From Sideroxydans lithotrophicus (GTDB taxonomy: Bacteria > Pseudomonadota > Gammaproteobacteria > Burkholderiales > Gallionellaceae): DNA of 44,535 nt. This document shows, piece by piece, positions 23,881-26,078 of the stretch (position 1 is its first letter; every line of letters begins with the position of its first letter). Under the pieces are notes generated by a model. The model saw only the letters and a program-made list of their open reading frames with translations. It searched no databases and had not been told where the DNA came from. The position numbers and the translations under genes are program-made. The stretch lies in contig DYJI01000011.1 of assembly GCA_020723185.1 (NCBI GenBank), positions 1-44,535 of the forward strand, given 5' to 3'.

Positions 23881-24384
23881 TCATGCAGCTTTCCACACCT
23901 CCCACCACTTCCTGGAAGCAGACATGCGGGCGAATTCGGCAGTCGCTTCCCGTTCCCACGTTGCGACGGAAAAGCCTGATTGCTGCAAAGCGGCACTGTA
24001 TTGGGTATCCACCCCCTGGATGTGCTCCCTCAGCCACGTCTTGAGAAAGCTCAACATCTCGAAATAGATCGGCTTCTCTTCCATCAAGTGCTTGTTGCAT
24101 AACTCATCAAGTTGCGCGATCAGCTTCCGGTGCTCTTCCATATGCGGCACCAGATCTTTGTATCTTGCTTCGCGCATCAAACGTTCCTCCAGCGCGAAAT
24201 GTGTCCTGGTATAGCTGGTCAGCGCATCCAGTATCCCCGCGATGGCTTTGTCCCCTTCCCGCCTGGATACCGCAACAAAAAGGCGATTCAGGATATTGAC
24301 CAGTTCCTGATGTTGGTCATCGATAGTTTTGATATTGACGCTGTAATCGGGCAGCCACTTGAAGAAAACCTCATCACTTGTCAT
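23881..24384 (-). CDS. Bacteriohemerythrin
   Basis: This is a 167-aa O2-binding protein of the hemerythrin fold, probably cytoplasmic. ATG 24384 follows GGAGGTGCAA; an upstream GTG (24396) overlaps the ribosome site and is rejected. All seven iron ligands of the family are present: H25 (DDQHQEL), H62 and E66 (THFALEERLM), H81 and H85 (HMEEHRKL), H121 and D126 (REHIQGVD). It can store, carry or sense oxygen for respiration or for methane- and iron-oxidising metabolism. A c-di-GMP-I riboswitch occupies its 5' leader, so expression should respond to c-di-GMP. Its divergent neighbour is a GGDEF-EAL protein. Confidence 0.93.
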   Translation of the reverse strand: MTSDEVFFKWLPDYSVNIKTIDDQHQELVNILNRLFVAVSRREGDKAIAGILDALTSYTRTHFALEERLMREARYKDLVPHMEEHRKLIAQLDELCNKHLMEEKPIYFEMLSFLKTWLREHIQGVDTQYSAALQQSGFSVATWEREATAEFARMSASRKWWEVWKAA

Positions 24385-24524
24385 TTGCACCTCCACTGAA
24401 AGACACGTTGCTCACCACCCTCCTCGGACACGCGCAGACGAACTGGCATGCAGGAAGGCAACGATCTCTGCGGTTTCGGGAAGACAGGAAGCGATGCACA
24501 ACGGTCACAGGACTGATTCGTCTC

Positions 24525-24600
24525 TGTGGCGGTCCCGCTACCATAGTTTCCCTTAGGCCGGAGACTTTGCGCCCATACCTTTCGATATGTTTGCCAAGTG
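24525..24600 (-). ncRNA. c-di-GMP-I (GEMM) riboswitch in the bacteriohemerythrin leader
   Basis: On the minus strand the aptamer reads CACTTGGCAAAC, then the P1b hairpin CATATC-GAAA-GGTATG, then GGCGCAAAG, CTCCGGCCTAAGG, TATGGTAGCGGGACCGCC. These are the conserved blocks of the GEMM-I family in the right order. The GAAA tetraloop has its classic 11-base receptor (CCTAAG with TATGG) in the second stem, as in the Vibrio Vc2 RNA. The G that pairs with the ligand appears to be kept, which favours c-di-GMP over cGAMP. About 140 bases separate it from the ATG; I see no terminator in that stretch, so control may be at translation. Confidence 0.93.
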
Positions 24601-24606
24601 GGATGG

Positions 24607-24635
24607 ATATTAACCACTATCTTGCACATGGACAA
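24607..24635 (-). promoter_or_regulatory. Promoter of the riboswitch-bacteriohemerythrin transcript
   Basis: TTGTCC (24630-24635) and TAATAT (24607-24612) on the minus strand are exactly 17 bases apart. The predicted start at about 24600 coincides with the first base of the riboswitch aptamer. No other element is seen up to the divergent gene at 24786. Confidence 0.65.
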
Positions 24636-24785
24636 TGTGTTTTTCTTTTCCCCAGCCCCCGCTCAAGGCAACCCGGCCGGACAGTTCTCACCCGGCGCTC
24701 AATTCCGCTCTGCAGACAGGTCCATTTGGTTTATCCTTGCCGTCCTCAAGTTGTTGCACAGAACCCAGACACTGCATCCCGCTAA

Positions 24786-26078
24786 ATGAATAGCGTCGAT
24801 TCTCTTACAGGATTCCTGAATCGCTTCGGCTGCTTCCACACAGCCATGCGATTGGCTGCCGAAGCGAGCGGCAGTCGGCAGACTTTCGCCGTGATCTGGC
24901 TCGATCTCGACCGCTTCAAACAGATCAACGAGTCGTTCGGCCATCTGGTCGGTGACGAGGTGATCGAGAACCTGGCCACCCGTTTCCGGCCGTGCGTGTT
25001 GGGCCGCGCCGAGATCTCGCGGGTAGGCGGTGACGAATTCGTGCTGCTGGCCCCGGGATTCAACCGCGAGCAGGCATTCCTGTTCGCCGTCGAGCTGGCA
25101 AGCATCGTGCAAGAACCACTCCATATCGGCAGTCTGACCCTGCGCCCGACCGCCAGCATCGGCGTCGCGGTCCACGAACCGAATGAAGATCCGCTCACGC
25201 TGCTTGAGCGTGCCGACCATGCCATGTTCGCGGCCAAATCCAAGGGCGGCAACAGCATCGTCTGCTCGGGGGACGAGCCCATCCCGGGACGCATGGGCGT
25301 CACCCTTGCCCGCGAAGAGCTCGCCATCGAAAGCACCCTGCATGAAGCGCTGGAAACGGGCGGCTTCTGCCTGCACTACCAGCCCATCATCCGCTCCGAC
25401 GGGAAGGTCGAGGCTGTCGAGGCCCTGATGCGCTGCAATCTGAACGGCGAGAACATCTCCCCGATGCGGTTCATCCCGGTCGCGGAGAAGACCGGCCTCA
25501 TCACCCGTCTCGGCGAACTCAGCCTGATGCAGGGGGCGATGCAGGCACGCGCCCTGCAGGACGCCGGCTTCAAGACCAAGGTCGCCATCAATGTCTCCCG
25601 TGCGCAATTGATCTCTGCGGAATTCACCCATGCGATGCACGCGGCGCTGGTCTGTTCCAATGCCAGCCCCGAACTGATCGAACTTGAATTGACCGAATCG
25701 CTGTTCATGGACATCTCGGATACGGTCCAGCAGAACCTGAAGGAGATCATTGCCGCCGGCGTGAATCTGTCCATCGACGATTTCGGCACCGGCTATTCCT
25801 GCCTGGCCAGCCTGAAAGACCTGCCGGCGGGGAAGCTCAAGCTGGACCGTGCATTCGTGACTGTCTTGCCGGACGATAGACGCGCATTGTCCGTGGTCAA
25901 TGCAGTGACCCGACTCGGGCACGAACTGGGCATGACCATCGTGGCCGAGGGATGCGAGAACCAGCAACAGATCGATGTCTTGCTTGAGGCCGGTGTGGAT
26001 GCCATACAGGGCTTCTTTTACGCGAAACCCATGCCGGAAGCAGAACTGCTGAACTGGCTTAAAGCACGGAGCACATGA
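24786..26078 (+). CDS. Cytosolic GGDEF-EAL c-di-GMP enzyme
   Basis: This 430-aa soluble protein has no TM helix or sensory domain: GGDEF (about 5-165) then EAL (about 178-428). The GGDEF motif (81-85) is intact, but no RxxD inhibitory site lies five residues before it. In the EAL half the catalytic set is present: E212-A-L, the LELTES Glu, DDFGTGYS, the KLKLDRAF Lys, VAEGCEN and the QGFFYAKPM loop. Both synthesis and hydrolysis of c-di-GMP are thus possible; net activity cannot be predicted. No clear ribosome site precedes the ATG. The next gene, encoding an HDOD protein, overlaps its stop (ATGA). Confidence 0.93.
   Translation: MNSVDSLTGFLNRFGCFHTAMRLAAEASGSRQTFAVIWLDLDRFKQINESFGHLVGDEVIENLATRFRPCVLGRAEISRVGGDEFVLLAPGFNREQAFLFAVELASIVQEPLHIGSLTLRPTASIGVAVHEPNEDPLTLLERADHAMFAAKSKGGNSIVCSGDEPIPGRMGVTLAREELAIESTLHEALETGGFCLHYQPIIRSDGKVEAVEALMRCNLNGENISPMRFIPVAEKTGLITRLGELSLMQGAMQARALQDAGFKTKVAINVSRAQLISAEFTHAMHAALVCSNASPELIELELTESLFMDISDTVQQNLKEIIAAGVNLSIDDFGTGYSCLASLKDLPAGKLKLDRAFVTVLPDDRRALSVVNAVTRLGHELGMTIVAEGCENQQQIDVLLEAGVDAIQGFFYAKPMPEAELLNWLKARST

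Follow-up and report, generated by a model that had tools for sequence, protein, structure and literature searches.

Among the c-di-GMP-I (GEMM-I) riboswitches, the closest described relatives of the RNA considered here are Vc2 of Vibrio cholerae and Cd1 of Clostridioides difficile. The part of PMC9262584 that deals with them describes Vc2 as a translational OFF switch that needs helix P1 for binding, and Cd1 as an RNA that binds c-di-GMP though no P1 helix was detected and whose HP1 stem is formed in the full-length molecule. Hemerythrin and c-di-GMP have themselves been connected in proteins. In Bhr-DGC of V. cholerae and Bhr-HD-GYP of Ferrovum, as given in PMC9388753, the redox state of a hemerythrin domain sets c-di-GMP synthesis or breakdown, whereas at the locus described here it is c-di-GMP that would set the amount of a hemerythrin, through RNA. 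Sideroxydans ES-1 has 14 hemerythrin genes and 43 genes in the GGDEF/EAL COGs in a genome of 3.00 Mb, and PMC3770913 calls its hemerythrins unusually numerous, for a reason said to be unknown. We found no report of a c-di-GMP riboswitch on a hemerythrin in the open-licence literature searched, a scope outside which the founding GEMM papers lie. There was none in the accessible portions of PMC2996986, PMC10101095, PMC9549626 and PMC10333796, and term searches in the available text of the Gallionellaceae papers PMC8788666, PMC10734462 and PMC12016527 returned neither riboswitch nor hemerythrin terms.

The window, i.e. the whole 44.5-kb stretch of Sideroxydans lithotrophicus DNA that was analysed, has a GEMM-I aptamer and a hemerythrin gene on its minus strand. 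The features of the locus, with the evidence for each in brackets, are as follows:

24786..26078, plus strand: divergent gene for a GGDEF-EAL protein of 430 aa, with no further Pfam domain matched (Pfam)
24607..24635, minus strand: candidate sigma-70-type promoter TTGTCC-17-TAATAT, with TTGTCC at 24635-24630 and TAATAT at 24612-24607 (sequence, and geometry in relatives)
24525..24605, minus strand: c-di-GMP-I (GEMM-I) aptamer, compact 81-nt subtype (RF01051 at 64.2 bits, and subtype features)
24599-24596, minus strand: 5' ACUU of the aptamer (sequence)
24595, minus strand: G, the base equivalent to G20 of Vc2 (sequence)
24506..24528, minus strand: hairpin directly 3' of the aptamer, CACAG(A)GAC-gaauca-GUCCUGUG, 8 pairs and one bulge (fold of -11.0 kcal/mol, and covariation)
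24385..24524, minus strand: presumed expression platform, the 140-nt leader from aptamer to ATG (sequence; no terminator found)
24389..24394, minus strand: Shine-Dalgarno (SD) sequence GGAGGU (sequence)
23881..24384, minus strand: single-domain bacteriohemerythrin of 167 aa with a Trp-rich conserved C-terminal tail (PF01814)

A sequence-only reading of this DNA had placed a GEMM-I aptamer upstream of a bacteriohemerythrin gene on the minus strand and had proposed a covariance search with RF01051 as its check. That search gave a significant match to the full model at 24605..24525 of the minus strand (64.2 bits against a gathering score of 35, E 2e-10, model positions 1-87 of 87), and RF01051 was the only Rfam family to reach its gathering score within the window. 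The GAAA tetraloop (24583-24580) and the receptor that the reading had pointed out are both there in the sequence, the latter as the strands CCUAAG (24557-24552) and UAUGG (24545-24541), which together we take to be the canonical 11-nt tetraloop receptor. We likewise take G24595 to stand at the position numbered G20 in Vc2. The base at G20 has a role in the choice between c-di-GMP and cGAMP, as PMC10333796 and PMC9262584 describe it, and the G at 24595 thus predicts c-di-GMP rather than cGAMP as the ligand. A G is found at the equivalent position in all 57 rows of the compact class described below. Elsewhere in the family, the aptamer of L005 (1501-1589, genome G031) has an A there, the cGAMP-type base. 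The likeness to Vc2 lies in the aptamer core, the tetraloop with its receptor and G20, and also in a leader in which no terminator was found and whose ribosome binding site (RBS) is far from the aptamer; Vc2 itself was reportedly found, by Inuzuka in 2018, to mask an RBS far from its aptamer. The RNA of the window differs from Vc2 in that its inferred transcript is without the 5' strand of P1, in the hairpin that abuts the aptamer on its 3' side, and in its hemerythrin target.

While the earlier reading was right in calling a GEMM-I aptamer, it missed that this one is of a compact subtype with an appended hairpin. We surveyed 158 genomes of Gallionellaceae, 106 of which have a GEMM-I match. 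The matches listed, together with L057 and L065, which came to light only via hemerythrin loci, make up a set of 153 GEMM-I loci from which weaker aptamers are missing. Aptamers of 81-82 nt account for 57 of these 153, that of the window included. Directly before the G20 equivalent, 51 of the 57 compact members have the four bases ACUU (three have GCUU, three something else), while none of the 96 other aptamers does, 91 of them read by script and 5 from the printed sequence. Of 64 short aptamers, a set made up of the short class plus seven of 76-79 nt, 30 (47%, against 5% of shuffles) have a promoter-like pair with a score of 9 of 12 or better immediately upstream, and in 28 of these the -10 box stops 0-2 bases short of the aptamer; among 84 long aptamers such a pair was found in 15%, against 4% of shuffles. 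A hairpin that starts in the last aptamer bases and scores at least 5 is present in 52 of 56 81-nt members, whereas the rate is 13% in single-base shuffles and 5 of 85 among long aptamers, and the hairpin of the window scores only 2.5 in this class scan because of its bulge. With all 56 members set in one fixed register, 73% of the cells pair. For the 26 distinct hairpins that fit the register (31 of the 56 members) pairing reaches 96%, as against 16-57% when the register is slid, but this subset was chosen because it pairs, which inflates the 96% and not the G-C/A-T exchanges seen at several positions among the 26. Of 399 genomes drawn from the order, 4 have the aptamer part of the subtype pattern, and these four all belong to the 13 family members in that draw. 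As judged from these sequence comparisons, there is good support for the compact aptamer as a variant of a known riboswitch class, and among the genomes sampled it has so far been seen in this family only.

The promoter of the window scores 8 of 12 and is weak by itself, and a strict consensus scan found no promoter. What makes it credible is that the 13 hemerythrin leaders, read by eye, all show one arrangement: TTGWCY, 17 nt and a hexamer that ends 0 or 1 base before the aptamer. The reading had let a promoter with 17-bp spacing start transcription at the first base of the aptamer; the promoter is present, but normal spacing would put the start at 24600/24599, 5 or 6 bases inside the Rfam model, and the mRNA should then have four or five bases ahead of the G that contacts the ligand. 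Since the promoter abuts the aptamer, such a transcript would have no 5' strand left for helix P1, and with no room for P1 the 3' hairpin may take its place under the ligand site. Binding without P1 is not new in itself, as Cd1 provides a precedent. The two RNAs share a GEMM-I aptamer, but Cd1 acts on transcription, as an OFF switch that has a terminator, and none was found in the leader of the window. The compact subtype bears on the question, taken up in the part of PMC9262584 cited above, of whether GEMM-I RNAs need P1 for binding and switching. An early alternative fold in which the 5' ACUU pairs with AAGU was considered and rejected. Its mean probability across 52 leaders drops from 0.64 in the short transcript to 0.09 once the hairpin is present (0.28 with 100 nt more); both strands are nearly invariant, so covariation is uninformative on their pairing.

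The hemerythrin gene has its ATG at 24384, and its stop ends at 23881. PF01814 matches the 167-aa product at 52.5 bits (cut-off 25.3, E 9.1e-14). All seven iron ligands had been claimed for it, and H25, H62, E66, H81, H85, H121 and D126 (five His, one Glu, one Asp) are indeed invariant across 16 aligned sequences and align with those of the DcrH hemerythrin domain 2avk. By sequence, the nearest solved relatives are this domain (E 1.1e-17) and the bacteriohemerythrin 4xpx (E 1.5e-13). From its domain and ligands the protein is a putative diiron O2-binding protein. Unlike 2avk and 4xpx, it is a free-standing single domain, and past the matched stretch it runs on into a conserved C-terminal tail that ends WW(E/K)xWK. 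This tail after the diiron domain (23884-23967, minus strand) ends KWWE(V/L)WKAA in most of the 16 sequences and is predicted, with low to moderate confidence, to be helical; the protein as a whole is likewise predicted as helical with moderate confidence (mean pLDDT 67).

At a threshold of E <= 1e-20, a hemerythrin orthologue occurs in 25 of the 158 genomes. The best relatives are mostly labelled Sideroxydans, Sideroxyarcus, Gallionella or Gallionellaceae, and a few carry broader or doubtful labels. Rfam was run on 30 of the 33 hemerythrin matches listed, three copies being unscanned, and a same-strand GEMM-I aptamer lies directly upstream in 12 of the 30 scanned loci, i.e. in 12 of the 25 genomes (in G124 the pair is at 1575153-1575864); in the other 13 genomes the aptamer is upstream of no scanned copy. 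A 13th locus (L089, genome G129) has the aptamer, the leader and 14 alignable codons, after which the frame breaks near the contig end. In 12 loci that keep the aptamer, the proteins are 61-89% identical to the hemerythrin of the window. Across the 13 leaders, 101-147 nt separate the aptamer from the ATG that aligns with the window's own start, while L065 also has an ATG 15 nt earlier with a better SD in front of it. On the protein tree, 4 changes are enough to explain the aptamer label, whereas shuffled labels take 9.7 and none of 500 shuffles came as low. Support is good for 8 of the 27 inner branches, a weak resolution, and the pair may have had one origin followed by losses, or several gains. 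A second contig set gave 11 loci, of which 10 were scanned and 6 have the aptamer; as these are the same records as several of the family genomes, they were left out as independent cases. Counted from the side of the aptamers, 13 of the 153 listed GEMM-I loci lead into this hemerythrin, 11 of them in one cluster, plus L057 and L089. The aptamers of L101 and L151 lead into other hemerythrins, which do not cluster with that of the window (PF01814 at 31.6 and 24.3 bits, the latter just under the cut-off of 25.3); L101 is a long-class aptamer with a short reading frame between it and the hemerythrin. Across the relatives compared, the presence of a c-di-GMP-I aptamer before the bacteriohemerythrin holds as real and conserved. 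The retention of the pair in roughly a dozen relatives suggests that c-di-GMP sets the amount of hemerythrin. Of the earlier proposal that an O2-binding protein is linked to c-di-GMP through RNA, it is thus the conserved association of aptamer and gene that stood up, while the control itself is what we infer.

The divergent neighbour had been put forward as an enzyme that makes or degrades c-di-GMP. Its GGDEF and EAL domains are real, but we rejected the gene as a conserved part of the unit, since it is common to only 5 of the 13 loci, that of the window counted, and the genome is rich in GGDEF. An orthologue with 87-89% identity occupies the same place in G131, G144, G147 and G129 (via L043), and the 1.1-3 kb flanks of the other eight loci lack it, with a 35% relative in L050/L036 as the one exception. 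Adjacency means little here because the 2.6-Mb genome of the window has 50 GGDEF and 24 EAL matches. Elsewhere in this genome GGDEF and hemerythrin matches share one open frame of 907 aa (G000:C12:61436-62320), and at G000 C2:139812-140675 they are adjacent on opposite strands, which points to possible O2-to-c-di-GMP links in this genome as well.

In the account that we prefer, the hemerythrin mRNA would start at, or a few bases into, the c-di-GMP-I aptamer, the cellular level of c-di-GMP would set the amount of hemerythrin made, the control would act on translation initiation some 140 nt downstream of the aptamer, and binding of the ligand would favour masking of the RBS, so that ligand means OFF. 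As a whole, from the transcript start through translational control to the OFF direction, we consider this account equally likely to hold or to fail. The site of control is probably translation. The segment between aptamer and ATG, earlier given as roughly 140 bases without a terminator, is 140 nt long, and the 24300-24800 region has no terminator-like site, although shuffles, too, average only 0.6. The direction is the weakest step; OFF, which we judge little better than even, is favoured because Vc2 is described as a translational OFF switch.

For the 47 of 57 compact leaders with a scripted start, opening the SD costs a mean of 6.1 kcal/mol against 4.4 kcal/mol for shuffles, with p < 0.1 in 26%, a comparison made with shuffles only and with starts that were picked automatically. 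This class-wide masking is driven by other target genes; in 12 of the 13 hemerythrin leaders the masking is not clearly above that of shuffles (p 0.17-0.67), and L065 is without an SD by the rule of the script. Compact leaders of cluster 1 (for example L123, L127, L155 and L166), in which upstream sequence masks the SD strongly and its opening costs 9.3-12.2 kcal/mol against 3.6-5.4 kcal/mol for shuffles, speak for RBS control more cleanly than the hemerythrin leaders do. When the aptamer was forced to form, the SD opening cost rose by 5.3 kcal/mol in L069, 3.0 in L089 and 1.3 in L054, rises that were reached by 0, 4 and 6 of 40 shuffles, respectively. Of the remaining leaders, three gave +0.4 to +0.6 kcal/mol, four stayed near 0, and three, among them that of the window at -0.7 kcal/mol, fell by 0.7 to 1.0; the run on L065 used a stand-in hexamer, its true SD not being found. 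In 7 of the 13 hemerythrin leaders, then, the forced aptamer hardly altered the cost of opening the SD or even reduced it, and with such mixed signs a uniform masking of the SD upon aptamer formation was discarded. An anti-aptamer model, which may yet hold, was set aside as well; in it, the 3' half of the aptamer would pair with a GUC..ACC strand downstream, and this strand contains the anti-SD too. This pairing is attractive in the folds of L049, L050 and L054, and across 53 leaders it is not above shuffles, the complementarity of the aptamer 3' half to downstream sequence being at chance (KS p 0.17).

The opposite sign, by which c-di-GMP would turn hemerythrin translation ON, seems to us rather unlikely. 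Here the CUCCGG strand of the free aptamer would pair with the SD, and the ligand would free the SD. It stays on as a rival on account of the SD-complementary strand, which no hemerythrin aptamer lacks: GUCUCCGG stands there in 13 of 13, against 7 of the 44 other short ones, and the SD core complementary to it is GGAG, or CGGAG in several orthologues. Descent alone may account for a CUCCGG common to the hemerythrin aptamers, however, and although L061, in its free MFE fold, has five SD bases paired to this strand, no SD base is so paired in the MFE folds of the other 12 leaders, that of the window included, which slightly lowers the standing of this alternative. Control above translation, with the ligand acting along the long leader as a gate on Rho-dependent termination or on decay of the mRNA, is unlikely too. 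The length of the leader, the lack of an intrinsic terminator found in it and a pyrimidine content of 50-61% across the 13 leaders speak for such control, but C does not exceed G in the leader of the window (0.26 vs 0.31). A relic aptamer, or one whose binding leaves the hemerythrin unregulated, would suit the 13 of 25 genomes with no aptamer upstream of a scanned copy (3 of 33 copies being unscanned) and is very improbable nonetheless, the aptamer core, promoter geometry and leader layout persisting in 12 loci at 61-89% protein identity.

The Gallionellaceae are iron oxidisers of oxic-anoxic boundaries. There, a conserved c-di-GMP riboswitch on one hemerythrin would be a direct and testable link from the motile/sessile signal to O2 handling. 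A wider scenario, tentative and to our minds somewhat doubtful, is that a compact, promoter-fused subtype evolved in the family, in which the mRNA would begin with the aptamer, its 5' ACUU beside the G that contacts the ligand, P1 would be dispensed with and the 3' hairpin would serve in its stead as a stacking platform. The module would have been reused before many genes, at least two separate hemerythrin groups would have come under c-di-GMP, and a loop would be closed in which hemerythrin+GGDEF proteins sense O2 while c-di-GMP for its part sets the supply of hemerythrin.

A downstream reading frame was picked by script for 148 of the 153 GEMM-I loci. The second GEMM-I aptamer of the genome (L002, 1501-1860; G000:C8:225052-225132, plus strand) is also of the compact subtype and precedes a small Cys-rich protein. 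A protein of this kind, with the motif PTCxNCxHT..VVCVPHL..MP, follows GEMM-I in 6 of the 153 listed loci by one motif scan, plus L188 (L002, L010, L090, L094, L095, L097 and L188), and the two copies tested had no Pfam match. The GEMM-I targets of the family are diverse; besides one cluster of 25 members they include proteins that, by eye only, were named as PstS-like, HlyD-like, MotB-like, PilZ-like, subtilisin-like and sensor proteins.
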